DNA of 64,000 nucleotides. It comes from Pilasporangium apinafurcum (taxonomy: Eukaryota; Oomycota; Peronosporomycetes; Pythiales; Pythiaceae). How positions within the stretch are numbered: position 1 is the first letter of the stretch; each line of letters starts with the position of its first letter. The position numbers were made by a program, and so were the translations under genes. Under the pieces are notes generated by a model. That model was not told the DNA's origin, searched no databases, and saw only the letters and a program-made list of their open reading frames with translations. The stretch spans positions 88,611 through 152,610 of the forward strand of contig BCKE01000037.1 of assembly GCA_001600495.1 (NCBI GenBank), written 5' to 3'. This document shows, piece by piece, positions 1,621 to 58,265 of this stretch.

Positions 1621-4600
1621 TCGGACAAATCGGGACGATTGGGTTCGAAATGGAGCAATACAGCGTTAATGAAGGAGATATTGCTCATGTTGATATTGCG
1701 CGGGTTTATGGGACGCTATCGACCGATAATGTGACCTTTCAGATATCTAGTTCGGGAATCGCGTCATCATTTTCTTGGCAATGTGATAGTGTCGACAGCG
1801 GTGCCAACTGCTATGCTGCTTCGCAAGGTTCAAGTTCAGGTAAGCAGTTTGCTACTTCATTATAGTGTTATATGCTTATTTTCCCTTACGACTGTGCTCA
1901 TTAGGTGTAATTTATTTTGATGTCGGTGAGTACGCGAAGTCCATCATGTTTACGGCCCCTGATGACTTGGTGTATGAATCCCTATCATCTTCTAATGTCA
2001 CATTATCATTGACATCTGCTTCAACAAGTGAATTGGGAGTGACAGAAACGATTGTTCAAGTACTCGACAATGGAGATGCTGGATTTATCGCATTTGAGAC
2101 GACATCCACCAGCATATTTGAAAATATAGGAGAACTTGAAATAGCTATCCTTCGATCTGGATCACACTTCGGTAATGTGACGGTCGCTCTCAGGTCAACG
2201 GTTAGTTCGTCAATTGCTACAAATTACGTCCAGACACTCATTTCATTTGGGGATGGAGACAGCCGTATTCTAGTATCGATACCGATTCGTGACAATGACG
2301 AGTTCTCACCAGGGAGCTTCACGTTAACATTGTCGAATCCAACCGGCGGTGCACAACTCTCGATCGATACCATGACAGTGCAGGTAGTCGATAAAGGTGA
2401 CATCAGTGTACCTAATTATCCGCAACTCAGCGTGGAAACGACTACTGGGGGAGCAATACAACTTGATTGGGCCTCTCCATCGTTTACCGGTGGATACTTC
2501 TCTGTGATACAAAGCTATGTGATTGAGGTCAGATCTCTCAATGAATCGTTTCTGGAAACTTATACTACATCAACGACCGGAGGTATCGTAATTTACAATC
2601 TGACCGCCGAGATGACCTACATGGCACGAATTGCAGCCATAAATCAGCGCGGCAGAAGTGACTTTAGCAATGCTATCGTGGCATTAACTACCGCAGCTAC
2701 ATCTCCGGGTCCTGTCATGCAGTTTATCTCGAATGAAGTTACTGGTGGATATATACAGCTTTCATGGCATGCGCCTCTCGATCAAGGAGGTTCATGGATT
2801 TTGCGCTACGAGATATCTATAATTGAAATCCAAAATAGTGAGACGCGTACTCTGGAACTTGATAAATCAGCTTTGGTAGCGGAGATTGGGGATCTCCTGG
2901 CGAGCACATACTATTCATTTTCGATTCGAGCTGTGAACATGGCTGGTATGGAAGGCTCCATAAATACGTTGACCGTGCTGACCTCGTTTGCTACGCGGCC
3001 TCGGAAGCCTCCTCGCCCAACACTTGTTCGTGCTACAGGCGGCTCTCTGCATATCAATATTACTGCACCCATTGATTGTGGTGGCCTCCCATTGATTTTT
3101 TACACCTTATACAGTGGGCGAGTGACTGGGCAAACGTCTACCAATCGTGAATATGTAACTACAAGCATCGTCAGTATGTCCTCTGATAGAGTTGTGGCCA
3201 GTGTGTCTATGTATGGACTACTTTCTGGTTCTGCTTATTTCTTCGGAGTCGCTATGGCAACTCGAATGGTGAGGCATTGTGGCAATAAAGAACAAAAACA
3301 TTTGTACTTCATCATATTGACATTTTATTTTACATGATAATTGTAGTATTGGAGCGATTTTAGCGACGAGGTAACCTTTACAACATTAGCGCCGACATTA
3401 CCGAGTCGTGTTCCTCGACCAACGGTTACGCTCCAGGATCCCGGCGAGGTAACACTAGTATGGGAGGCTCCACTGGACTCTGGAGGTGCCCAAATTATTG
3501 GCTATTCTGTACATATGCGCCGTCGACTATACAATGATACTTGGTCTACATCCTCTATTGTCTACGACGAACGAAATTCTCGAGTACAGACGGCATTGAT
3601 CACCGACCTCCAGGCAAATACAGAATACGCCTTCAGTGTTATAGCGTACAATTTTCGATCGCTATGTTCTGCTGATGATGTCAGTCCCGTCGGTGAAGAG
3701 CTGATTATGACAACACAAGACAGTACTGTGCCCTCTCAACCCAAGCGCTTGCGTCCGACTGTCGTCACTGGTGGCTCCATTTCGATTGTATGGGATCCAC
3801 CGATATCTACCGGAGGTGACTCACTGCTCAGTTACGTTATCTTTCGTGGCATACCTGCGTTCCAACAGGGCTTTGCTATTGTTGGAACTATTGATGCAAA
3901 CAATACCCGAGAATTCACCCAATACGGCCTGTATGCACAACTTCAATACGTGTTTATGATCTGTGCAACTAACAGTCGCGGTATGGGGCTTTATTCATCG
4001 GCTTTGTTTGTGACAACTTCACGGCTAACTCCACCAGATGCACCACGGAACCTTCAGCAAATTCAATCTGGATCAGGAGGCGTCAATATACTTTCGTGGG
4101 ATCCTCCACTCGATACAGGTGGTAGTGCATTGCAGAGATACGCTGTGTATCGAAACGGGTCCCTACTCGATGTGGTGGATGCTTTCACTACTCCTACAGT
4201 GTTTAACGATGCGACAAACGTATCTGCCGATCATGTGTACAACTACACCGTCATCGCAAATAATGGTGTCATTGCTGGAAATATTTCGTCGTCCATTTTA
4301 ATTCGTTCCTATGCTGCAACATTCCCCGCTAGCCCTTCGATAGACATATTGCAGGTCGGAGGAGGATTCGCAACAATTATGTGGATGCCTTCCTCGGACT
4401 CGGGCGGTCGCCCTATTCAACATTTTTTTGTGATTATCTCTCGCGCAGATGCTATCATAGCATCTTTCAATGAAACAAAAAACTATTCTTCGATTTACAA
4501 ATTATATGCCGATACGATGTATCGAGTCACCGTGCAAACCGTCACCGATCGTGGGCCAAGTGCTGCGAGAGAATTGTATTTTACCACGCATCACGCACAA

Positions 4601-7600
4601 ATACCAGCAAAGGCACCATATCCAAGAGTAATAAATGTCTTTGGCGGATACATCCAGGTCGAAGCAGTTCCTCCAACAGATTTTGGAGGTAGCAGTATCA
4701 CTTCATTCAATTTCTACGTGAATGGTCAGCATGCCGATGCAAGGACGCTTTCAGCATTGTACTTGTATGAGATTGCTGGTTTGGTGGCAAACACAACATA
4801 TTTGGTTGCTGTTTCAGCAATGAATGAGATCGGAGAAGGTATCGCCTGCGATCCAATAGAAATAACGACGACATCAGCGTCATCACCAGGTCCTGTTTCA
4901 AATGTGCTGGTTGTATCCATAACATACGAAAGCTTAACGATTGCGTGGGATCCTCCGAGAGACACGGGAGGTGATCCTAGCAACATCAGTTACGACGTTG
5001 AGTTACGCCTTGATACTACCCTGGTGGCATCTGCAAGTCGGGTTGTGAGTCCATTCACGTTTAGTAACTTGAGTGCAGACACATCTTACACAGCACAGGT
5101 CAAGGCTAGAAACCTAATTGGAAACGGCCCATGGAGTGATACTCTTCTTGCAAGTACAGATCCCATTTCGCCCGGCATTATTAACTTTTTGTTCGATTCC
5201 ACGACTGTATCCGAGGCAAACGCTACTATTTCAATTTTGGTGACACGCACAAACGGTGGTGCTATTGAAGCTTCGTGTATGTATCAAACATTGCCGGGAA
5301 CAGCTCTGGCGAACAAAGATTTCGTTTCCATGAGTGGAAGACTGGTTTTCCCAGCTGGAGTACGTTTACAGATCATTGTTGTTCCCATTATCAATGACGA
5401 TGTGATAGAAGATCCGGATCCGTACTTTTATGTGGAGTTATATAAAGTTACTGATTCTTCTGGAACAATCGGATCAAATGGAATGCTGCAAGTTACTATA
5501 CTGGATGACGGTGATGCTGGGATGTTGCAATTTTCTCAATCATCTTACAGTGTACTAGAATCAGAGCCAAAGATTATCGTGACAGTCATACGAAAGCAAG
5601 GATTCAGTGGGCATGTAGTAATGACGATCGATGCAAATGATCTACCAGATGGTGCTCGCAAGAATATCGACTACGTTATTCCACAAGCGACTGCGGAGCT
5701 GAATGATCAGCAAGATCATGTCGACATTCCCATCACAATTATAAATGATGATGTTTACCAAATTGCCAAGATATTTGAGCTGAGAATTATCATTGAAAGC
5801 GGGCGCGCTGGTATTGGCTTCCCTATGTCCGCGGTTGTTGAAATTCTCGACGACGGAGATGTGTCACCATCTGGGGCTCCACTTGTTGTTCAAGGGACTC
5901 TATTATCTGGGGGTATGGTGCATGTATCGTGGACAGCACCAGAATACAAAGGAGCAAAGAATGTGTCGTTCTTGACCTATGTTGTAGTTGTGACTGATGA
6001 TATTCACAATCCACAACGTCTTGCCTCGTTCGCCGAAGAAATTACTGTGACGAATCTAACTGCCCGCACTGATTACCAAGTCGTAGTTACGGCCAACAAT
6101 GGATACTACGAAGGTGTTTCCTCAGCGCCAATAGCTGTTCGGACTGGAGTTCCTACGCCTCCTTCAATACCGCTGAATATTCAAATTGTTCCGACTGGCG
6201 GAAGTGCATCCATTTCTTGGACAGCTCCGTTTGATTCAGGAGGAGCTGCCATTGCGCTGTATCGAATTTATATCAGTATGGACAATCAAACTGGGCTCGC
6301 ATCCACGTACAATACCCTCGAGCGCAGCGTGATCATCTATAACCTGACACAGTTAACAAACTATTATATTAGAGCCCAAGCAATGAATTCTGAAGGAATT
6401 GCTGGTCCAATGACTGAACCAATTCCGTTTATCACTCGAGCTGCTACGACCCCAGTCAAGCCTCTTGGTATTAACGTGCTTAAGCGAACAGGAGGAATGC
6501 TAGAATTAGAGATGCAACCGCCGCTCGACACTGGGGGACTAAGTACATTTACCTACATGCTCGTAAGTACTTCGGCGCAGCAACCCAACGTGTTCACAGA
6601 AGTTTATGAGGGTCCAAACGCAACAGTAATTGTTAACCGACTGTTGTATTCAACTAACTATACTTTCAAGTATCGCATCGCAACATCTGCGGTAAGTGCC
6701 AGTTCATCTCCGCAGTGTTACTATTCATTTCATACACTTGCTCACGGCATGTATTGCATTTTAGGGTGTGAGTGATTGGAGCGAGACAATGACAACTCAA
6801 ACGACCTTCTTATCATTCCCTTCTGAGCCTTCCAACGTCCAAGTGATCTCGAAATCAGGTGGTTCAATCGGACTGTCGTGGGATCCGCCCATAGATTTTG
6901 GTGGAAGTGATATCAACTATTATGAAGTGATATACTTCATAGGGTACGATGTGCGAGATCAATTTCAAAAAATTGTAATGGTGCCTAGTACCAAGACAAC
7001 TTCAGTAACTACTTCAGTCCCAGGTCTCATTGCTAACACCAGCTACGGTTTTATCGTGGATGGTGTGAATGATATTAGTGAATGCGCTGACCGCTCCGTC
7101 TTACTTAGCTACATCGTAACGTATGCAACCACTTCGATCATGGAGCCTCCAGAGATACCACAAAATCTTGCCGTTAGTTCAACAACTGCAGGCATGCAAG
7201 TAATTAATTGGGATCCCTGTCAGGATACCGGTGGAGATACGTTTGTCCAATATCTGTTGTATTCAGACACAGATGAATTATTATACAACGGAACACGAAC
7301 TCAATTTAAGTATGGACCATTGCTTGCCAATACAGTTCATCGGTATACAGTCATGTCGTGGAATTCTGCTGGCACAAGTACACGAAGCCCTGAAGTGATA
7401 GCGCGGACACTGACCGACTTAACAATACCAGGCCCTCCAACGGGGCTTATCCAAGTGAATGCCTCAGGCGGGTCTATCGGATTGATATGGAATGAGCCAA
7501 TAGACCTTGGAGGAACATTAGCTGTTGGCTACCAAGTGTATCGAAATCACGAACCGCTCGTCGATCAAGCTGATCTGGTGACAACAAACAACTATGTGGA

Positions 7601-10600
7601 TGAAAACAATCTTGCTGCTAACCGCGTGTACTCTTATCATGTACAAGCTATCAATTTGATTGGTGCTGGTCCTGTAAGCGACGATTTTCTTGGCCAAACG
7701 GCGATGCCTTCAGCTCCCAATCCACCTCAAGCTTTGGCGCTTGAAGCTATCGGTGGCCAACTCACAGTGAACTGGACAGCTTCTGGAGATACCGGTGGAG
7801 TTCCCTTGATCAACTATAGAGTAAGCATGGTCACACCTTTTGAAGCCAACGACTTCACGCTGGACACGAATTTCACATACTACAAAATTCGACCGCATTA
7901 TACATACACTATTAAAGTCAGTGCGATCAACGCAGTCGCGGAAAGCTCTTTTGTGTTGAGGACAGTTGAATCGGGAAATGCAACTCGTCCGGCTGCTCCT
8001 CCCACCCCTACAGTAGTCAATTTTAGCAGCCAGACTGTTGTGCTGAAGTTGTATGAGCCGATGGATGATGGAGGATCGAATATTACAGCTTTTCGCGTAT
8101 ATCAAGACGGTCACAGCGTGTCTTCCTTAGACTGGGATACTTTTCAGATGGAGGATGAAGTGACAATCATCAATCTAAGGGCACAAACCAGATATAATTT
8201 CACAAGCACAGCCATTTCAGATCCGACGTTGGGTGAAAGTAAACAAAGTGCTGTGGTGACTGTGACAACTGACAACCCCACGTTGCCCTCCAACGTGTAT
8301 AATCTTGAGCTACTTGGAGTTACATCTGAGTCACTCATTCTTAAATGGAAGGGACCCGATGACACCGGCGGCGGTCTTATCTTGTACCAGCTGGAGTATT
8401 GCAATATAACTAATGAGACAACCGACGGTATTTGGGAAACAGTAACAACTTACTCTCAAAAGCTCGAGCTAGCAGGACTCAGTCCTTCTACCACATATGC
8501 TGTTCGTGTAAGGGCTAGCAATCCTGCAGGCTTTAGCTCGTGGACAAGTGAGTTGGAAGGGACAACTGATGTGGCAAAACGTGGTGTGGTGATGTTCAGT
8601 CCCGAAGATATATATGTATTTGAAAACGAAAGTTTTGTGACCATCCAACTGGTACGCTTCAATGGTACTTCTGGCTCCATCTCCTGCAACTATACTGTGG
8701 ATTTAGTCAATAGTACAGCAGTCGCTGGGAAGGACTATGATATGGTCAATAGTACAGAAGTCGCTGGAGAGGACTATGATTTAACTCTAGGGTCAGTGAC
8801 ATTTGCGGACGGAGAATCAGTGAAAGAGATTGTGGTCAATATTTATGATAATCAGGTGTATGATCCCGTCCCAAGATGGGTGACATTGGTTCTGAATGAC
8901 ACTTCGGAGAGGTCTGATAAAGTCCCACTATTTTACGCCACAATCTGGATTCTTGATGATGGTGACGCTGGATGGATTGAGTTTGTTTTTTCGGAGACAA
9001 GCGTTTCTGAAAGTGCTGGAATCTTTTTTGTCCCGTTACAGCGCGTCGGTGGTTCCAGCTCTTCTACAACAGTCAAACTCGAATTCGATCAACATAAGAG
9101 TACGGCCGTCGAGAATGTCACTTTCGAGATTTGTACACCGGATATCGAGTTTGCAGACAACGAAACGAATCAAGATGTCAACCTCAAGATTATAAACAAT
9201 ACCGTTTACGATTATCCTTACAAATTTTTCATTTTGACACTCAAGGTAGCAAGCGGGGGTGGTCAAATTGGCGCGAATTCTATCATCAACATCACTATAG
9301 AAGACGATATGGACACTTCAGCTCCAGGGGAAATGATACCTCCGGTAGTGAGTAAAGTCACAGGTGGTTTGATATCTTTAACTTGGCAGCCGCCCGTGAA
9401 CGTAGGTGGTCAGATGCTGTGGATTACGGAGTACATAATCGGAATGAGCGTTGAAGACAATGAGGTCTATCATAAGACTCAAAGCAATACTACACAAATG
9501 GCATTTGGGTCATTGCAAATATTTACCAATTATTCATTTAGGATTGCCGCTATAAACGTCGATGGTCAAGGAGTGTTTTCCTCCAAAATCGAGCAAATGA
9601 CGACAAATTATACAGCTCCCGGTCCTATGACGACTATGGAACTCATAGAAGCAACTGGAGGTCTACTTACACTCCAACTGATTCCTCCCCTTGATTTGGG
9701 TGGAACTACAGTTCAAGGTTTCTTGGTTTATTTGGCTTTTGAAGGAGAATCTGATTTTGAGGTACAGTATCATTCATTAATGCTAGTCCCTCAGAAAGTA
9801 TCTTCTATTGAACACAGGCTCACACCGCTTTCTGTGCCCTTAGATTGTTTATAATGCATCGAATGACAATTCATCACTAATTCAAGTGAGTGTTAGCGAT
9901 GCCGAAACGAATTACACGGTGAAAGCCCAGGTGTGCGAAGTAAAGTACTGCTTCGATAATAGAGATTTGTAAGCTAAAAGTATTCTTTCCGTGGGATCTA
10001 GGCTATCAATTTTGTGGGAATTGGCGATATGTCCAAAGGGTTCGCATTTCGTAGTGGTCAACTTTCGCGTCCAGGCCCCCTACGTCTCTCAAAACTAGCA
10101 CATGCATCGACTGGAGGCTCCATCGGTATCTCATGGGACCCCCCTGTAGACACGGGTAAATTTGTCTCATTGAACTCACAATCTCGCTCATTTACTGAAA
10201 ATGTTTTCCTTTCATCGTGTTAGGTGGTTATAAAAATTTGTCATACGTCTTTTATCACCGTGTGCAGGGTCAAGGAGAGCGATTTCGACTGGCGTATTAC
10301 AATGCTATCGGGCTAGAAGCATTCATTTACCGGTTGACAGCAGAGACAGTGTACGAAATCGTTGGCATCTCCTGCATTCCTGACGATATGGTTTACCTCG
10401 CTTGGGGGACGCTTTCTTCCAAAGATGCAAGCATTGCCATTTCGGGTACGGTATCTGACAATATCTGGAACTCCAGTAAATTCTTTGAATTTTCGGTACG
10501 TGGAGCTCGATAGCGTAGCAATGACTTTGATTATCATGCCGCTCCGGAGATGTTTACGTTCGTGGGTATTGCAAAATTAGGAGTATTTATTCGAAGTTGA

Positions 10601-43400: not shown

Positions 43401-44055
43401 TATTTCACTCTTTGGCATGAAGTATGCCGGTCCTGGTGGTAGCAGCAGCTCGATGTGGATGGATGGGAACGTTATCTTCACGCTAGTAGTTCTCATCGCT
43501 AATATGAAGCTGATGATATTCCAGAACAGCTTTCACTGGTTTAATCACGCACTATACATCGGCTCCTTCCTGGTATGGATACTACTTGGTTTGGTTGCCA
43601 GTCACATGACTTTGATCTCGGATCTTACTTGGGAATTGATGTTTGAGCAAACGTTCGCAAATGGCACGTTTTGGCTACTGATGCTGCTGGTACCTGTCAC
43701 TGCGCTTTGTAGTGCATACTTGCGTAGTGGCGTAAAGATGACATTCTTTCCTGAATACTGGCAACTTGCGAAGGAGGTCGTCAAGTTCAAACTTGATCAG
43801 TCGCTTTTGCAGTGGGAAGATACCAGCAGTGGATCACTGGACGTGCCAGTCATGCCGATAAATTTACGGCCAGCTAATCGATTGGGAACTGTAGTACCCA
43901 CCAATAATCGGCCTTCAGCGGTTCAGGAAGTACGAAACACATTGCAGCGTGCCTACCATGGGTTTGCGTTCTCTAAAGATGCACATGCAGGTGCAACTGA
44001 AGCCAACTTGCTCATGCATCGCGGGTCCATGCCCTCGCGAGAGAATAAAACATAG
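40438..44055 (+). CDS. P4-ATPase, phospholipid flippase
   Basis: A single exon of 1,205 residues. The first ATG of the frame is at 40438 (MGASVSDKGEYRVVHLND). Hallmarks in order: an N-terminal P4 pattern (NTNAGFCDNYTVTSKYT), the actuator loop LDGETNMKVRSA near 40962, PISLIVSM in TM4 near 41470, the phosphorylation site SDKTGTLT near 41630, a nucleotide-binding KGAD near 42158, VLTGDKEETAINIGF near 42532, and the hinge GDGANDVSMIQEAHIGVGI near 42929. A bundle of six C-terminal membrane segments follows. P4-ATPases move phosphatidylserine and similar lipids from the outer to the cytosolic leaflet, usually with a CDC50 subunit. The length and absence of introns are normal. The gene starts 841 bp from the divergent E2F gene. 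Confidence 0.95.
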   Translation: MGASVSDKGEYRVVHLNDVQANTNAGFCDNYTVTSKYTAVSFLPKFLFESFRKMGNLYFLTISILQCIPQISNTNGQPSTLPPLIFIIAVDAIFAILEDHKRHVADNIANARTTQILDRSTKTFVTKTWADVVVGDIVRVANRELMPADILVLAVSEIPNTPPSGICYVETKSLDGETNMKVRSAMECTLADMGTTDNLLKMEGIIRCEHPNNAINSFQGALELQGKQPQSIPYESIILRGCIIRNTDWVHGVVFNTGKDTKIMMSNSAPPSKMSTMDQSINKYIVVLLVFLMLFSAAGATGAIIWNSQSAKFWYLSIDDTDSSVFVNWIVMLFYYLLLMYQFVPISLIVSMSMVKYLQAQFIQWDQKIYYPPTDTPALVRSMSLNEELGQISYIFSDKTGTLTCNVMEFRKCSIGGVSYGNGTTEIGLAALKRAGKPVPVINVDDSRPKVPFVNFDGPELFNDMKGESGSIQQRRIDLFFTHLAVCHTVIPERHENSNEVTLSASSPDEQALVAGAAYFGFEFLNRTPGVAHIKIHGVNQQFEMLDVLEFNSTRKRMSTIVRHPNGKIFLYSKGADVIIFGRLQKDLDGDTASAKLQEITKQHIDNYAEDGLRTLTIAIREISQEYYAEWSQRFHDAQNNLAEIDKRKKDQPNLIDQYMDEIESDLELLGATAIEDKLQTGVPDTIANLANAGIKIWVLTGDKEETAINIGFACQLLTNDMQIFIISAKNCSTPNKIEAELTTRIAARTVDVRAYLEIPAASRGTLQKIALVIDGETLTHALGGTCRALLSEFSQYCKAVIACRVSPAQKAQMVALIKESVPGVRTLAIGDGANDVSMIQEAHIGVGISGQEGMQAVNSSDYAIAQFRFLERLLLVHGRWNYRRLAQLVLYIFYKNIMFTATQFWYTLLCGYSGQKIFLEAGVQLYNICLTALPIVALSIFDQDVGDDMAMKFPKLYSTGPRDEDLNKSIFSIWVAGAILESVLIMFISLFGMKYAGPGGSSSSMWMDGNVIFTLVVLIANMKLMIFQNSFHWFNHALYIGSFLVWILLGLVASHMTLISDLTWELMFEQTFANGTFWLLMLLVPVTALCSAYLRSGVKMTFFPEYWQLAKEVVKFKLDQSLLQWEDTSSGSLDVPVMPINLRPANRLGTVVPTNNRPSAVQEVRNTLQRAYHGFAFSKDAHAGATEANLLMHRGSMPSRENKT

Positions 44056-44434: not shown

Positions 44435-45130
44435 TTACTTTGCAACGATAGATTCGAGTGTGATAGCGCGAATTGTTACTGACTTACGACGTCGATAGCA
44501 ACGATGTTGTTGGCGAAGTTTGACGAGCTTTTCCACTAAGATCGGTACATCCGATGACGATTGAGCAATCGCTGCGGCGATAGACTGATGCGAACGGGAG
44601 AAAATTCTGGCAAACAGCCGATAGTTCCGACGCATACGCAACCGCACGACATGGTCCATGCAATATTGTTGTTCGCGCTGAAGTTCAACTATTTTCTCTT
44701 CTTTGTCTTTTTCAGTGTCTGGGTTCTTTGGATGCGTATCTATCGGCGATATTGGAGGACAGTGCACGAGTTTGGGGTCTACGCAAACAGAAAATGAATC
44801 ATGCATATATATCGCACTCTATATTCAAGTAATATATGGTTACAATTCATATAGAGATGCAGTAGTATCCTACCTTGCGTTGCTTCGCTTTGGCCATGCG
44901 GTGGTTTAGCTAGAGTCTTCTTCTTTTTCTTCTTGCCGATCGACTTCTTCTGGGCGCCACGGACCACCAGACGCTCATACCTGTCAGCACGTGTAGCAAA
45001 AGCATTACAAACTTCAGAACTTTAGTCATCACATTCACCACTGATGTAGTCGAACGTTGATACTGTTTTGATCGACTTACAAGCGATTGAATGCGAGCTC
45101 GCGCTGCGCTTCCTCATCCATCCTCCTCAT
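44435..45130 (-). CDS. Small basic protein of unknown function
   Basis: Three exons join in frame: 45130-45081, 44980-44874 and 44778-44435, giving about 166 residues. The N terminus (MRRMDEEAQRELAFNRLYE) is helical. It is followed by a Lys-rich run (six lysines near 44925), then a Pro-rich turn, and a long helical, Arg-rich C-terminal half with IQ-like spacing (CMDHVVRLRMRRNYRLFARI). I do not recognise the family. A second in-frame ATG three codons downstream could also be the start. The Fanzor element begins within about 140-250 bp of its 5' end and so sits in its promoter region. Confidence 0.55.
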
Positions 45131-45269: not shown

Positions 45270-45400
45270 TTACTCCAACTCGCTTCGCGAGTTGCGCCTA
45301 CCAAGTGGCTACACCTAGAATACGGGTTGTACCGTGTGAGCAGGTTCAAGTCCGAAGACCCCGAGCTCACGCTTTTTTTGCGCTTCTACGACTCACTTGA
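45270..45400 (-). ncRNA. Candidate guide-RNA scaffold (omega/fRNA) at the 3' end of the Fanzor gene
   Basis: Immediately 3' of the Fanzor stop the DNA folds well. An 8-bp stem (CAACTCGC/GCGAGTTG, loop of 3) is at 45276-45294. A second 8-bp stem with one G-T pair is at 45334-45341 with 45365-45372. It encloses GTC-CGAA-GAC (45350-45359), extended by a GG/CC pair. In TnpB and Fanzor loci the scaffold RNA overlaps or follows the 3' end of the nuclease gene on the same strand. Ends and expression are unknown. On the plus strand the same DNA holds a perfect B-box-like GGTTCAAGTCC (45343-45353) and a T7 run (45373-45379). Confidence 0.35.
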
Positions 45401-47632
45401 TTCTCGTTGCAAGTACTCTGATCTTGCTCGATTGTTGAAAAGTTCTGTCGTCACGCGCATAATATTCGGCGAAGCGTTCACGTCGTGATCCCAAAACGTC
45501 TTGCATTCACTGGATTCACAGTGCAAAACGGATCGAGATTCAATTATGCCATCGGGAACGCCGTTGATCATTTTCGGGAAGACTGCCTTCACAAGTTCAG
45601 CGTGACAGTGGAAACATCGCTTGCTTGTACGAAAGTCGTCGATGGAACGAACGGTAGCGCGCTTTGCCAGTTCCTTCTTGAGCGCTTTGACGGGTCCGGT
45701 ACCGTGGCCCTTGATGCCATCATGACAACTCCAGTTTCCAAAATCGACCAACGTGTTCTTGCTCGCAACGGGTACAATGCGCTCCACCACGTGACTCAAC
45801 GCCTTAGCCTTGTACACGTACTGGTAGAAGCGCCACTTCCGGAAAGCATGGCGTGAGCAAAAATCAATAAGCCAGTTGATGTGTGCCCATACGAACTTGA
45901 GATGCTCAAAGTATCGTGAAAAGGACGCGGTTTTGAAAGAGGGCATGCCATGCATCAGGGTCCCATACGCAACTTCATGTTGTTTGATGCCTTCATTCCA
46001 AGCGCGAACGCTGTTGAATCCAGCAAGATGACGATACTCGCGAGTCGAGATCTGCGTGATGGCGTACATGTCGAGCAATTGATGACCACGCCTGCGTTTT
46101 CCATTCGTACGTCGTAGATGAACCCTTCGTGTCACTGGTCCAGCCAATTTACGTCTCTTCCGTCGTAGGAGTCTCTTCTTCCTGCGTCGAGATGAACGTT
46201 TCCGCGTAGCTGCAACTCGCTTCTTCTTCCGAAATCGAAAAAACTGCCGTGAGCGAAACCTGTCGTCTTCCAACNTNNGGACAGTNGCAGTTGTGCACAG
46301 TGCACGCATGCCGGGATCAATTCCAATGATCTTGGTTGCGCAGAAATTTCGTGCGATCTTCGGGTCGAACTCCTTCTTGGACAAATAAGGGTTCTCTCCA
46401 CCGATAACATCTCGCTTGCGCAAGACGGACACATCGTATCCGTTGGTCGTAATATAGTGCGCAAATTTCCATCTCCCGGTCTCGAACTTGGAAATATCAA
46501 AGTGCTCTCGCCAGAGATCATCACGAAATAGCTGGAACTCCTTATTTGAAGGCACCTTCAACCCACGCTTTCCTTCCACCAAAAATTTCTTGAACGGGTC
46601 ACGATCGACTCGCTTTTCTTGCTTGAGCTGTTGATGAATTCGGATCCACATCTGATGGAGAATGGAAGAGTCGATCGCGATATGTGCGGGAATAAATGAC
46701 GTTGCCACAGGAAATAGAGAGAAAACACGGTTGCCCTTGATGTTGGGCTCTTCATCCTGACGACTCTCCATGTACACCAGCATCTCGTACAGCTTGACGA
46801 TAAAATACGTGAGATCTCATTCAATGTTGTCGGTCGATGGCTCCTTTCCCAACCATTCTCGTACCATCATCGCAACTTCACGTCTGGGTCCCCACTGCTG
46901 AAATGCTTCACGAATCAAAATGTGCACGATTCCCTTCGTCGGTTGATCGTAGCGCAGCTTGACATACCGGGAGAGACGGCGGTAGAAATGCAGAACAATT
47001 ATATTGTGCAGGTTCGTCTTCATCTGCATGCTGAGCGCGCTTTTGGACTTGTCCCAGTTCATGATAGTTGAACGTTGATACCCAGCTTGTCTCTCGCGCT
47101 CTTGTCAGAAGAGACTAATGCTCTCGTTGAGCGCGATATCTTCACCCTTAGATGAAATAAACTGGTTGATCCCGATCCCAGAAATACAACGATTGAAGAA
47201 GTTGATATCAAACGGGGGAAGGTAGTCGACACGCTTGTTTTGGTCGGGATCGTCACGACTCTCCAGACACCGCAAGAGATGAAAGTTGATAAGATGCCAC
47301 GCTTCCATCTGGATCTGTCGTAGTACGCGCACGCTTCGCTCAATCTCGTCCTTGACCAGTTGTTGCTGCGGTCGCTTGTTCAAGTCTTTGACGAAGAGCT
47401 GGTGAAGCGTGCACTTGATGGCAGACATCTCATCCTCGTGAATTGCCATTTTCCGGAACTGCGCACAGAGCTTGTTAAAATCACTTTCCTTACGCTCGGC
47501 ATCATCACGTTGTTCTTGTCTCGAGAGTGTGCGAGCGCGCTTGGTGTCGTTTTCAGTATCCGTGTCTTCATGTTGCGAGTCCGGTCCAGGATCATAGGGG
47601 ACTCCCTGCGATCAAGAGCGCTTTGACGCCAT
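45386..47632 (-). pseudogene. Fanzor RNA-guided nuclease homologue, interrupted by three in-frame TGA codons
   Basis: From ATG at 47632 to TAG at 45386 one frame runs 749 codons with no frameshift. It is cut by TGA at 47612-47614 (codon 7), 47105-47107 and 46817-46819. The N-terminal third has a basic, NLS-like part (NDTKRARTLSR) and a helical region with KSALSMQMKTNLHNIIVLHF, typical of the family. RuvC-I is IGIDPG near 46326. An Arg/Lys-rich insert follows (near 46130-46260). The RuvC-II region is GNWSCHDGIKGHGTGP near 45700, with Asn where bacterial TnpB usually has the catalytic Glu. The zinc ribbon pairs RCFHC (near 45615) with HCESSEC (near 45520), and RuvC-III is DHDVNASPNI near 45480. 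Four N bases at 46275-46286 give unknown residues just after RuvC-I. Each TGA could derive from CGA by one C-to-T change. A read-through or uninterrupted allele elsewhere is possible. Confidence 0.85.
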
Positions 47633-47879
47633 GGTGTTGAATTGTCGAATGACATACCGGTAAAAAAATCTCCATACTGGTTGCAAAGACACATTTGCAG
47701 TTGATCATACTGAAAATAAGATTTCGAGGTAATTCGTTTGTCAGGTTTTCTAGTCAGTACGACAAGTTTGGCCAGACGGACAAAATGGAATCTCATACGT
47801 TTTCCGTACCGACGGACAGCTTGCGAAAATAAGATGAAAGGGAAATGATCAAGGAGAAGAATCGCCACCATGGTTGGCT

Positions 47880-52091: not shown

Positions 52092-55000
52092 ATGCGTCGG
52101 CACTTTCTCTTCCCTGAACAGGAGCATGAGCGTGGCGTCGGCGATGCTGAAAATGGCAAGAATCTGCTGCAGCTGTGGCTCGAGCGGCGGAACCAACTGC
52201 AGCAGCATGACCAAATAAATCGGCACTTACTCATGTTCTGGGACTTGGTGAAGCCAACAACGCAATCGACACTTACGATGACCGACTACGTAACTTTCTT
52301 TGCTGCGGTGGTCAAGGCGTTGGTGCAGACTGTCGATGCGGATATTGCAGACTTGATAGCTCAACGTGACTGGATCTACGATACCGAAGGCGCGAATGTG
52401 CTAACACTTGAAGGTTTTCGTGAGTCGATGATGCAGATCGTGGAGTTGATTCTCCCTCTGGAAAGCGAGCCGTCCATGTTTACCTCATTCTTCTTAGAGC
52501 TACGTGAATCTCTCGCAATGGTCGATGGTTCATCTATCCTGACCAACGACATTGATGATGAAAATAATAAACAAGATGGCGAACACACTCCTAGAGACGG
52601 TCCCGCCACTTCATCATCGACAGAGCGCCAAGAAAAGAATAATCGAGTGGATTTGACTCTGAAAGCGTCTTTATCGGCGCCACACCTCTACGAAGCAGTT
52701 TCGTACAAACTTCGTCCACTGACAAGTGTCACTAAAATCTGCGAACCATTTTTACAGAAAATGCCTCCTACAAGCGACCAATTGTCGATGATCCATGGTC
52801 TGTCGCTGCCGAATACTCAGCAAATGTCGCTCAAACAATTGCTGCTGTGCTACAATCCACGGAAACTGGCGCTCTCGCGCAAGTTTTCCTCACTTTTTAA
52901 ATCTTCCACCGCGAAAGTTAGCTTGAACAGCAGCAACAACCAGAATGAGCAGCATGAGGTTGGACGTTTGGAAGATAACGAGTCAATCTTGATGGCTGAA
53001 CGGGCTGCACCAGTGATGGCTCCAAAGATGCTGAACAAAGAAAGTGAGGATCCATGGGACTCGGAAGATGCGGTGGTGCAATCACTCGAAGCGTTTCCAG
53101 CCTTTAGAATCGCAGTTGTAGGTCCACCAGGTAGCGGAAAGACGCGAGTAGCGAAAATGCTTGCTAAACGACTGCATCTGCGATATTTTTCTCTCGCGAC
53201 TGCACTTGAAGAAGCCATCGTTCGCAAGAAAATAAGAGATAATGTGCGAGCGTCTGCAAAGCAAACACAGCAAGAGGAGGATGTAGCAGTGTCGGCGGGC
53301 GAAGTTGAAAATAGCAGCGCAGTTGCCGCCACAGAAGCAACAGGAGGAGAAACAGAGATAGTTGTTCAATCAAATGAGGACGCAAGCGAAAGTGCGCAAT
53401 CGGATAGGCAGCTGGACGATGCATCATCATTGGTGACAGAGGAAAATCGGATGCCACTTATTGAAGAGCCATTGCATGAAGAAGATCGACTGTTCACAGA
53501 TGCAGATCGAGACGCACTCTTCTTAGGACACGTCTTGCCTCGAGCAAAAACACTCGAGATTTTTACTTTCTACGCGAAGAAATCTCTCTTGGGTTTGTTA
53601 TTATGTTGACTCTTGCTTCCTCATAAAGTCGTAGTCCTAATGACATTTCTTCTTTGTGTGTGTGTTGTCAGAGGGCATTGGTATTGTCGTGGATGATATC
53701 CACCCCAGCGAATTAGAACATGTTATTGGAATCGATTTTCTAGTGGCTCTGCAAGCCATCAAAGAGGACATTCAGCACCGAATAGAGCAATTCACCATCG
53801 CCCCCACTTCGCGTCGCGTGTATTCAGCGTGTGAGTTAGCAATCCTGAAGCACGACCCATTCGCTACGGGTATTCAAGGCTTTGCAGACTACATCCAAGA
53901 AGAACCAACACTTAGTGACTATAAGCCACCTGAGAAGGCTTCTGCAGATGAGGAACTGAATCCAGAAGTTGATGATACCGGCAACAGCGAAGAAGTCTCA
54001 CCGGATACCTACAATGAAGATGATGAAGCTGTAGAGCCACCTAGTACTGCACCACCTACAGCAGTAGAGCGGAATGAGATTGTTCCGCCCAACGAATCCA
54101 CACTTCCACTGAGATCTTTGCTGCTAAACTCCTTTTCTAACCGATACAAAGACTATCTTGATCGAATTCAATCGCGATTGGTAGAGTACTCCCGTGCTAC
54201 TGGATCATCATCATTGTCTGCATTAAGCGGAAATCGTTATCATGTTATCCACGTCCTGGCTGCACAATCACCTTGTCTCATCATCGATCAATGCCTTCAT
54301 GCCATCTCAGGGGTACGTATGTTGTTCTACTCGTTTCCTTAAAGAAAGTGATTATGTCTACTGAAGTTGACATCATTTCTATGTATGTTGATTAGAATAC
54401 TATTGGTATCTCCCGAAACAATTTCTCCCGTCAAGTTTGTCCAATTTCGCTCCCAGAGGAACTCACAGCAAACTCTCGCGCTGATCAGATTCGGTGGCTA
54501 TTGCATGGTGATTGGAGTTCACTTCTTGCTGCACAAGATATAACAAACGATAACGCACAACTGTGCTTCTCTCAGTTGCCGAAGGGCAAACGTCGCTTCT
54601 CGAAATGGAAAGAGTTCTGTCCTGTTATGTCCTCTGCCGAGATGGACCTTGTCCTTGGTGATCCATGTTTTGCTGCCACATTCTCCGGCCGCGTGTATTT
54701 ATTTGCCAATGAAGACGCAAGAGCCAGCTTTTGCGCACATCCACTGCAGTTTTTACGCAAGAAACCACAAGCTAAACCGTTAGAACGAATCTGGCTTGTC
54801 AGTTCACTCAATATCGATCCGTACTTATCGCATTGGGGGGCTTCATTACAACTTCCCAACTATAGTGCCACCTCGCTCATTACAGCGCATGCAGCAATGT
54901 CCGTGCAAATGGAATGGATGGAAGGAAAGAAGCTATTCCCTGCACATGCAGCGACGTTGGTTGCGGATGTAATCCACAAGCAGCAAAACCATACTAATAA

Positions 55001-58000
55001 ATGGTTGCTAAGTAACCTTCTGTTGGCTAAAGATACTGTAGAGGCGCTGAAGGAAAGCGAATGTCTGCCAGACGTTCTCATGATCATGGAACCAGATGCA
55101 GGCGTACTAGAGCGAGAAGCTAAGACGACTAAATGCGGGACAATCATCGGACTAAAGCATCAAACCGTACAACAAACGCAACAGGAAGCCTGCAATCTTC
55201 TCAAGGAATATGGAGTTAGTGTTCGAACATGTCCGCTATATAACGACGTAGATGATTCCTTGGCTGCTCTTATCCAAGAATTGAACCCGCTAGCGCCCCG
55301 GATTGATCGAATTGAAGACGGCTATCTGCTCGCCGATGAGGGTATTACTGTATTTACTTATGCTTCTGAAAATGATGAAGAACCACGAAACATGCAGGCA
55401 CAAATGGGTGAAACTGGACGATTTTGCCCCGTTTCGTGGCACAACAAAGGGATACTCGTCCCTGGTAGCGCTGAGTTTGTGAGTTCGTTTGCTCTCAAAT
55501 ACTATGCATTTGCTGGACGGCAGGAACAGCTTGCCTTCGAGCGAAATCCTACCAAGTATCTCCCGCAGAATCGCTCGCAACACGGAGGAGGAACGGTGAC
55601 TCACACGCCATGTATTGTGTTCTTGGGTGTCCAAGGTTCTGGGAGACGACAACTGACGGCATCACTTGAAGCACTGACAGCGCATTCCGACGCACATACG
55701 TTGCTGGATGTTGATTTAGATCATGTGCAGATGACACAAGAGACACAGATAAAGCTTGAGTCCTTGAAAGAAGAATCCAATCGCGAATCCATTGAAAGAC
55801 TTTACGTAACATCATTAAAGAAGCACTTCCAGCAAACGTTGATAAGTTGGCGTGAGAGTCGAGCAACCGCGTCGACCTCACCTGTTCTACTTGTCGCTGG
55901 TTTTGGGCATGACACTGCAAGAGTTCCGAGCAAAGATTTTATTCAGATATGCTTCGAACAGGGCATGGTTCCTTCGCTCGTGATCCCTTTGACGATAGCA
56001 CAAGAAGCCGTCATTCCACGATTACTAGGTGAATGGAGAGCTGGTCTTCCACAACCACGAAGGAGACCCAAGAACATAAGCCAAGTATCAGATGACAAAG
56101 ATGTTGATGTCGAGGAGGAAGAGGAAGCAGAGATTAACCTGGAAGAAGCTGAAGCGGAAGAACTCCAACGTCTACAGGAACAATATCAATTCGAACAGGA
56201 AGCGATAACCACAGCGATCGAAGTATTTCAGGCCCGTGGTGTTACTGTCACGGCGCCAATTGATGTATCTGGGACACTGCGGCAAAGTGTGAAAAAAATT
56301 GCTGTGGAGTTGAAGGCATTCATGGCACGAAAAGACTCGCTTTTTGACTTCTGTGAGGTGGTGGATAAGGCTACATTTACCGAGATGCTGACAACAGGTG
56401 AAGCCTTCGTTGGCAAGCATGGCAATCGGTGTCCAGTTACAGACACTTACAGCGTCAGTGTGTTGAACCGAAACAATTCGTTGGACACGGCTGTACTGTA
56501 TCGAGATCGCTTGTACTTCCCAGATGGTCATGACGCTCGAATGGCTTTCATGGCGAATCCCTGCTTGTATCTGCAGAAGCGCACCGTTGCAGCTTGCCAG
56601 CAACCAACATGCTGCATCACTGGGGCTCCATATGTCGGAAAAACGAAACTGGCAAAAGCTCTCGCCGCAAGATACCATCTCGTGTATGTCTCACCAGCGG
56701 CCGCAATCGACTGGGTATTGCAATGCCATGGTGGTACAGCGCTGTGGAAAACATTACAGGAGGCAAAATCAATAGACGCAATCCCTGATGCCACTGTTGT
56801 TCATGAAGCGATTTGCACCCGCCTTCAATCATCGGAATGCCTTGTCAATGGATGGATACTGGACGATTATATATTGGAATCGAGTCAACTTCATCGGTGT
56901 AGACAACCGACGAGTCTGGTCGAACCAGCGCTACTATTTATCCTGGACGGTAAATTTCATCACGTGTGGGAAATGAAGAAGCGGTCAATTACGCATGTAA
57001 CAGATGACAAAGAAGACCAACATTTTGAGGAGACAAAAGTTCGTGCCGAAAGAGCGTTCCAAGCTACTCGAGATAAACTAATAGGAGAATTCGCAGCTTG
57101 GCAAAAGTATCGTCTGGAATTACTTGGCTACTGGTCCACAACGTTTGGCGAATCTCATGTGAAGCAAATTGATGCACATCAAAGTTCATTTTGGAATATT
57201 ATCGCTCAAGCTCAACACCATTTCGAAGTACAACACATGAAGGCTCGTAACTTTTGGAAAGAGCATGCAGCAGGATTACCATCGAGAGTAGATGGTGTTG
57301 CGCGTTCATTGGATTACGTAAGTGCACGTGTTCATCCAGTTTTCCGAGTATTTTGTCCAGTGGAACTCAGTGAATCACGTTACCATGCATCTTCGGTTTC
57401 AAACCGCCAGCTGTGTGTTGAATTTCAAGGGTATCATTTCTGGCTCGCCAACGAACTGAATCTAGCACGATTTCTTGACCGACCACATGATTTCATTAGC
57501 GCTGAGCAGGAACGTGATGCGTCAGAACTTCTAGATAAACTACCCGTTGACGCCTCTCTTCTCAGTCTGATCTCCGTCGCTGACTGCGACTTTCCCGAAC
57601 TAAAAGGCTATTGCCCTGTTACTTTCAAGATGGGTGCTGGCGCAAAAGATTGGAACTCGATCGTCAAAGGACACATCTTTTATCGCGCCACGTATCAACA
57701 CAAGGTGTACTTCTTCGCATCGGAAGATATGCGTCGCAAATTTCTTCTCGAACCAACACTATATGCGCGCCAAAATTTACCTGTCAAGCTGCCTCCACAA
57801 GTTTCGATAGCGCTGACAAAGAATTATCCCGGGAAGTTGGAGCAAGAACTGTCGGCGGTTCTCAACGAGGCGCTTCTTGCGCTCGGCAGCGAGCGACCAA
57901 AATTTTTGCAGGTGAGCACACGCGCATCGGCATGCTTCTATATGGCTTTGATCTTAAAAACCGAATCAAAGAGGCTTCCAGAACACATCAAGACAAAGTT

Positions 58001-58265
58001 CCGGGAGAAGAAGGAAGCGTTTGAGTACGATTGCCGACTTGGACTTGCATTGAAAGCATCCTTAACACCTTATAATGCTTCCTGTGGGACTGCTATTAAA
58101 GGCGTCCGTGCTGTACGCGGACCAGCAACTCCAGACCGGATATCTGAGATGGATGTTGACGAAGTCTATCGACGATTTGACTTTATCACTGGGATTCAGG
58201 GCTCAGCGCCATTATCATCGCCTACAAACATCAGTACAATATTTCGAGAATATGCGTCCATATAA
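52092..58265 (+). CDS. Adenylate kinase 9-like multi-domain protein
   Basis: Three exons: 52092-53592, 53672-54312 and 54396-58265, giving 2,003 residues, near the length of AK9. I chose the ATG at 52092 as the first in frame. After an N-terminal helical part there are nucleoside-monophosphate-kinase-like P-loops: VGPPGSGKTRVAKML near 53127, a degenerate GVQGSGRR near 55624 with Arg for the usual Lys, and GAPYVGKTKLAKAL near 56626. Five C-P-V modules are interspersed (FCPVM near 54616, FCPVS, RCPVT, FCPVE, YCPVT near 57610). Each is followed by a G-x-x-Y-x-F-x-x-x-x-A/M-x-x-x-F pattern, as in AK9. AK9 interconverts nucleoside mono-, di- and triphosphates and occurs in flagellated organisms. 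A flagellar role in zoospores is inference. Confidence 0.85.

Follow-up and report, generated by a model that had tools for sequence, protein, structure and literature searches.

The reading frame at 45386-47632 of the analysed window (the whole stretch of DNA under study, 64,000 nucleotides) is very probably a decaying, non-functional Fanzor1 copy in an intergenic part of a eukaryotic genome. Fanzor1 proteins are TnpB-like RNA-guided nucleases of eukaryotic mobile elements. The frame is broken three times and has lost a key active-site residue, so that it most likely represents the ordinary, decaying fossil of a gene of a known kind and does not encode a working nuclease. An earlier note had named the family correctly from the raw sequence, and its coordinates, strand and motifs were confirmed. 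Its description of the gene as 'near-intact' with 'all diagnostic parts' fails, because the frame contains three in-frame TGA codons and changed active-site columns, with Asp at the position of the catalytic Glu and His at the position of the Arg in the RuvC-III 'RD' pair.

Reading frame and family assignment

The minus strand from 47632 to 45386 forms a single frame of 749 codons, stops included, which starts with ATG, ends with TAG (45388-45386) and is free of frameshifts. Three in-frame stops, every one TGA, divide it after a short start into open pieces of 168, 95 and 476 aa (Table 1). A complete Fanzor1 frame would be open over approximately 600-800 aa. The first TGA may be no lesion, given a later translation start, whereas the second and third break the N-terminal half of the frame. 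The GC contents at the three codon positions (0.528/0.385/0.568) are coding-like, and that at the third position is higher than in seven neighbouring frames (0.427-0.525). The lack of frameshifts in 2.25 kb and the coding-like GC point to little decay or to constraint; the absence of frameshifts suggests that decay set in not long ago or that some constraint persisted. Of the six undetermined bases (N) in the window, four cluster inside this frame, which may mean that the reads stem from more than one similar copy or allele. Inspection by eye indicated that neither of the two N-ambiguous codons in piece 3 can be a stop.

Most of the family evidence comes from piece 3. It matches the Pfam model Cas12f1-like_TNB (PF07282) with 26.4 bits (E 7.8e-6), barely exceeding the cut-off of 26.3, and it matches OrfB_IS605 below the cut-off. 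When piece 3 was searched as a single sequence against PDB (E up to 1), both of the two matches were Fanzor1 proteins, namely that of Parasitella parasitica (PpFz1, E 3.2e-5, the best match) and that of Spizellomyces punctatus (SpuFz1, E 9.6e-5). A profile built from the N-terminal half of piece 3 and the PpFz1 fragment recovered SpuFz1 with an E value of 4.4e-13, the match running through RuvC-I, and a C-terminal profile of piece 3 and the PpFz1 and SpuFz1 fragments recovered Guillardia theta Fanzor1 (GtFz1, E 1.8e-5); the matches of PpFz1 and SpuFz1 to the latter profile arise by construction, since both are built into it. Matches to TnpB models were weak, at 27.6 bits for NCBIfam guided_TnpB (cut-off 100) and E 1.8e-6 for PHROG 506. 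The 476-aa open stretch, the Pfam match and the PDB matches place the frame beyond chance, and the profile and PDB matches assign it to Fanzor1 in preference to bacterial TnpB. As judged from the alignment, the frame is a Fanzor1 family member by descent, because it aligns with SpuFz1 at the catalytic Asp residues of RuvC-I (D383) and RuvC-III (D606), both of which the earlier note had pointed out in the frame.

The two upstream pieces are less easily assigned. Piece 2 shows a weak, collinear likeness to part of SpuFz1 (chain residues 519-559, in the N-terminal third), with an E value of 0.64 that is non-significant when taken alone. Piece 1 yielded no significant match of its own in the profile and sequence scans, and we count it as part of the gene on two grounds: it shares the reading frame, and approximately 125 SpuFz1 residues (chain numbering) precede the part matched by piece 2. 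Both pieces also had weak matches in unrelated families, which were dismissed as chance, the best being that to Aip3p_Bud6_N (E 0.01, 16.5 bits versus a cut-off of 27). A tblastn search of the window (E up to 1) detected no further Fanzor pieces besides the frame itself.

Relatives were also sought outside the window. In viral contigs, none was confirmed with piece 3, two alignments of C-terminal fragments, one alignment of RuvC-I fragments or a DNA motif as the query; 37, 37 and 44 stretches that fitted the patterns failed a tblastn check (E up to 1e-3). Among the prokaryotic genome contigs, 66 stretches fitted the pattern and none was confirmed as a relative, and plasmids gave no blastn match.

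Table 1. Positions of the Fanzor1-like frame and of its parts in the window
Feature	Position	Strand	Basis or remark
Fanzor1-like reading frame, 749 codons, three TGA	45386..47632	-	ORF reading
Piece 1, 168 aa, putative N-terminal part	47108..47611	-	frame and length compared with SpuFz1 (by inference)
Piece 2, 95 aa, collinear weak likeness to SpuFz1	46820..47104	-	E 0.64
Piece 3, 476 aa and TAG, WED end/RuvC/zinc ribbon	45386..46816	-	profile and PDB matches
In-frame TGA 1, codon 7 from ATG	47612..47614	-	
In-frame TGA 2	47105..47107	-	
In-frame TGA 3, after piece 2 and ahead of the conserved FSLFP...IDSSIL block	46817..46819	-	
TNG; PpFz1 and SpuFz1 read TDG here	46439..46447	-	by eye; the MAFFT alignment places it otherwise
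RuvC-I Asp of IDPG, aligned with SpuFz1 D383	46316..46318	-	alignment; D383 numbered by hand count
Four undetermined bases (N) within the frame	46275..46286	-	
GNWS, usual Fanzor1 G-x-W motif	45728..45739	-	alignment
Asp in the column of the relocated catalytic Glu (SpuFz1 E541)	45635..45637	-	alignment
Zinc ribbon, first Cys pair, CFHC (C-x2-C)	45605..45616	-	coordinates from residue numbers
Zinc ribbon, second Cys pair, CESSEC (C-x4-C)	45503..45520	-	
RuvC-III Asp (DHDVNAS), aligned with SpuFz1 D606; preceded by His, Arg in Fanzor/TnpB	45482..45484	-	

Active-site columns and comparison with solved Fanzor1 proteins

All of the motifs listed in the earlier note are present, and both RuvC Asp residues and all four Cys residues of the zinc ribbon survive. 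The catalytic pocket was read through alignment to proteins with solved structures; a single-sequence structure prediction of piece 3 (mean pLDDT 37.9, pTM 0.21) was left unused. The RuvC-I motif reads IDPG, compared with MDPG in PpFz1 and IDPN in SpuFz1, and DPG at this site is described as near exclusive to Fanzors, TDG being the WED motif of Fanzor1 (PMC10711439). The basic stretch that begins at 46231 on the minus strand is also present. The Fanzor1 zinc ribbon is of the C4 type and is preceded by [TS][TS]xx (PMC3627910), an arrangement that is found here as TSKRCFHC ... CESSEC.

The lack of Glu in GNWS, at the place of RuvC-II, had drawn attention in the earlier note. The motif is indeed there; it is not unusual, since the corresponding residues are GNWS in PpFz1, GDWS in SpuFz1 and GNWG in GtFz1, and GNWS is thus a normal Fanzor1 motif. 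Its Gly aligns with the SpuFz1 Gly located 36 residues ahead of the Glu, which is the conserved spacing in Fanzor1 (G500/E536 in SPu-1-1p). The canonical RuvC-II Glu of TnpB, approximately 50 residues before the zinc ribbon, is absent; as in Fanzor1, that region holds GNWS, which here lies 41 residues ahead of the first Cys.

The relocated Glu of Fanzors is called 'Ealt', a definition reportedly given by Yoon and colleagues. Its column is occupied in the frame by the second Asp of IDDFRTSKRC, and it holds Glu in all three solved Fanzor1 proteins aligned (PpFz1, SpuFz1 and GtFz1). The published position is six residues ahead of the zinc finger (PMC10711439), and the residue is E541 in SpuFz1 (PMC10432273). 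Our SpuFz1 chain numbering agrees with the published E541 and D606, which are 65 residues apart (PMC10432273, PMC11423790). The Glu of KKELAKR (from 45679), which had been offered as the relocated residue, is out of place, as the motif starts at residue 380 of piece 3 and the Ealt column is residue 394. The pattern DPG-x(120,260)-[DE]-x6-CxxC fits residues 167-404 of piece 3, with Asp at [DE]; a loosened form of the published pattern gave no match, a failure that was certain here because its second pair must be CxxC. At RuvC-III, the Asp of 'RD' is retained and the Arg is replaced by His. This Arg is described as strictly conserved in Fanzor and TnpB (PMC3627910), and GtFz1, which is active, reads RN at these columns of the alignment.

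Among 24 columns that are identical in the three solved Fanzor1 proteins, a measure biased towards these reference proteins, the frame has kept 11 and lost 13, some of them conservatively. In a leave-one-out comparison, GtFz1, PpFz1 and SpuFz1 share (by construction) 24/54, 24/44 and 24/40 of the columns common to the other two, and the frame keeps 18/54, 12/44 and 16/40 in the same sets. The yardstick is rough, and the sets of 54 and 44 columns include some outside the left-out fragment, so that the references are understated.

In its C-terminal part, the frame is 25-26% identical to PpFz1 (PDB 9cf0-9cf3), with which it shares DPG, GNWS, D[ED]FRTS and the C4 ribbon with a C-x4-C second pair in identical order. 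Where PpFz1 keeps its relocated Glu and reads CPxC and WNRD, the frame has Asp, CFxC and WDHD, and it is further set apart by the three stops. Identity to SpuFz1 (PDB 8gkh, 9ceu-9cez) over the C-terminal part is 19%; the counterparts of D383 and D606 are Asp in the frame, whereas E541 is replaced by Asp. SpuFz1 elements carry inverted repeats (PMC10432273), and none was found around the frame. GtFz1 (PDB 9cer-9cet) shares the G-x-W motif and the C4 zinc ribbon and also has a changed active-site residue. However, the change in GtFz1 affects the third position (Asn) and leaves the Glu in place, whereas the frame has a changed Glu column and retains the third Asp.

Fanzor1 and Fanzor2 were first described in 2013 in at least 26 eukaryotes (PMC3627910). 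The Fanzor1 families reported there by Bao and Jurka include six in Pythium ultimum, four in Phytophthora sojae, two in P. capsici, one in P. ramorum and two in Albugo laibachii. Likened by description, these represent the same protein family as the frame and also the same host group, if the designation of the host as an oomycete is right. Some Pythium copies lie inside Mariner elements, and degenerated coding sequences appear in the legend of fig 3 (PMC3627910). Among the full-text titles listed for Fanzor with oomycete, Phytophthora or Albugo, none was devoted to a particular oomycete Fanzor locus.

Loss of function and alternative explanations

The ancestor of this copy would have bound an omega-RNA from the end of its element and used a RuvC D-E-D site to cleave double-stranded DNA that matched it, as has been established for SpuFz1. 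In the present copy, the whole protein would no longer be made, because the TGA codons break the N-terminal half, and the open remainder has neither the catalytic Glu at the Ealt column nor, at RuvC-III, the Arg of 'RD'. The copy, left behind in an intergenic stretch, has most likely lost its function.

It is unlikely, though the least unlikely of the alternatives, that the locus still encodes a working Fanzor1 in which Asp replaces the catalytic Glu and the stops either fall within short introns and are spliced out or are mistakes of the draft assembly. The frame is frameshift-free, and since it also contains the four Ns, the stops may be assembly errors. That every stop is TGA has a chance of 0.017-0.036 under simple mutation models, a value that is not compelling. 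A substituted site need not be dead, since GtFz1 still cuts despite its non-canonical active-site residue (PMC11423790). As for introns, a GT-AG scan that covered spans divisible by three only showed that 9, 10 and 19 spans of 39-150 bases can be drawn over stops 1, 2 and 3, respectively, and a donor-like GTATGT site at 47657 lies just ahead of the ATG, so that a leader intron could remove both the ATG and TGA 1. However, the best donor/acceptor scores over the three stops were only 3, 2 and 3 of 5, and the only GTRNGT sites upstream of stops 2 and 3 in the scanned stretch (47700-45380) are those at 47657 and 46967. The former is distant and ahead of the ATG, and the latter lies within a stretch whose weak likeness to SpuFz1 runs across it. 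Introns over the stops are thus not supported, and removal of the stops would leave the Asp and His at conserved columns unexplained. A sense reading of TGA, genome-wide or in this gene alone, might be considered because no in-frame stop other than TGA occurs before the final TAG; it was rejected as already largely refuted, and we give it almost no credence. TGA acts as a stop, because 14 of 29 long frames end in it, the next TAA or TAG following after 0-101 codons, and because the frames of 864, 1238 and 1344 aa that match myosin and P-type ATPases are free of TGA. The 29 frames, piece 3 among them, were taken mechanically from 33, and the four dropped were open-ended or lay inside or opposite longer frames.

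The open remainder could also be a truncated, catalytically impaired Fanzor1 that the host has kept for a role in DNA or RNA binding, a protein of 465 aa from the ATG at 46783 comprising RuvC and the zinc ribbon. Piece 3 is open over 476 codons, and its zinc-ribbon Cys residues and basic stretch are intact. Such a protein, however, would be without most of the N-terminal REC/WED region, which holds the guide RNA in solved Fanzor1 proteins, and we consider this explanation highly improbable. TldR proteins, which are nuclease-dead relatives of TnpB, offer a possible parallel. They are described as RNA-guided transcription factors of phages (PMC13418256). By analogy with such bacterial repressors, a Fanzor1 without the catalytic Glu and the RuvC-III Arg might have been kept as an RNA- or DNA-binding regulator, either as the shortened zinc-ribbon/RuvC protein or through bypass of the TGA codons; this more specific idea seems slightly less probable still.

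Understood as a decaying copy, the locus adds one degenerate member to a family whose description dates from 2013 (PMC3627910) and whose proteins were recognised in 2023 as RNA-guided nucleases (PMC10432273). A false lead is also cleared away, as no new functional nuclease is likely to come from the locus and GNWS does not represent an unusual active site. The locus would gain greater weight only if intact relatives shared the Asp at the Glu column, in which case the known range of Fanzor active sites would widen.

Genomic setting and other features of the window

The suggestion that the frame lies between two ordinary host genes holds in part. Downstream, a plus-strand gene for a P4-type phospholipid ATPase ends at 44055. 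The adjoining minus-strand frames (48877-48185 and 48086-47880 upstream, and a small one at 44806-44435 downstream) gave no Pfam match at E up to 0.01; the two upstream frames look coiled-coil, and an LRR frame lies farther out (50232-49330).

A mobile-element setting was taken to mean terminal inverted repeats, TA target duplication or a nearby transposase, features that are not universal in Fanzor1. The best inverted match between the two flanks scored 10, compared with 8-12 in 20 shuffles of one flank, and each of three inverted pairs noted has one arm within the frame. A Pfam scan of 22 other frames in the window detected no transposase family. Since no element ends were found, it is from the family that we infer a mobile-element origin. 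The fold of the 3' end of the gene (321 nt), where an omega-RNA would lie, was unremarkable (z -1.40, with 9 of 100 shuffles equally good), and Rfam and tRNA scans, including an Rfam scan of the 3' end, gave no match.

A 17-base direct repeat (45047-45063 and 47065-47081, 16/17 identical) has one copy in the frame near TGA 2 and the other past the 3' end. Its pattern, which was picked post hoc, matches twice in the window when up to two mismatches are allowed, compared with a mean of 0.04 in 100 shuffles. As a target duplication, it was set aside as probably incidental, because one copy is inside the frame and a SpuFz1-like length needs piece 1 beyond it. A perfect 8-bp hairpin with a 3-base loop (CAACTCGC/GCGAGTTG, 45276-45294), noticed by eye approximately 90 bases past the 3' end of the frame, is possibly part of an element end or of a structured RNA.

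Two other regions of the window deserve mention. Two large adjacent plus-strand frames at 3347-9854, each with six fibronectin type III matches and with Calx-beta domains, probably belong as exons to a single, very large gene for a surface protein. The frame at 54396-58265 shows sub-threshold matches to YHS and to the ciliary family FAP206 (31.5 bits, cut-off 33), the latter of which, if real, would indicate a host with cilia or flagella.
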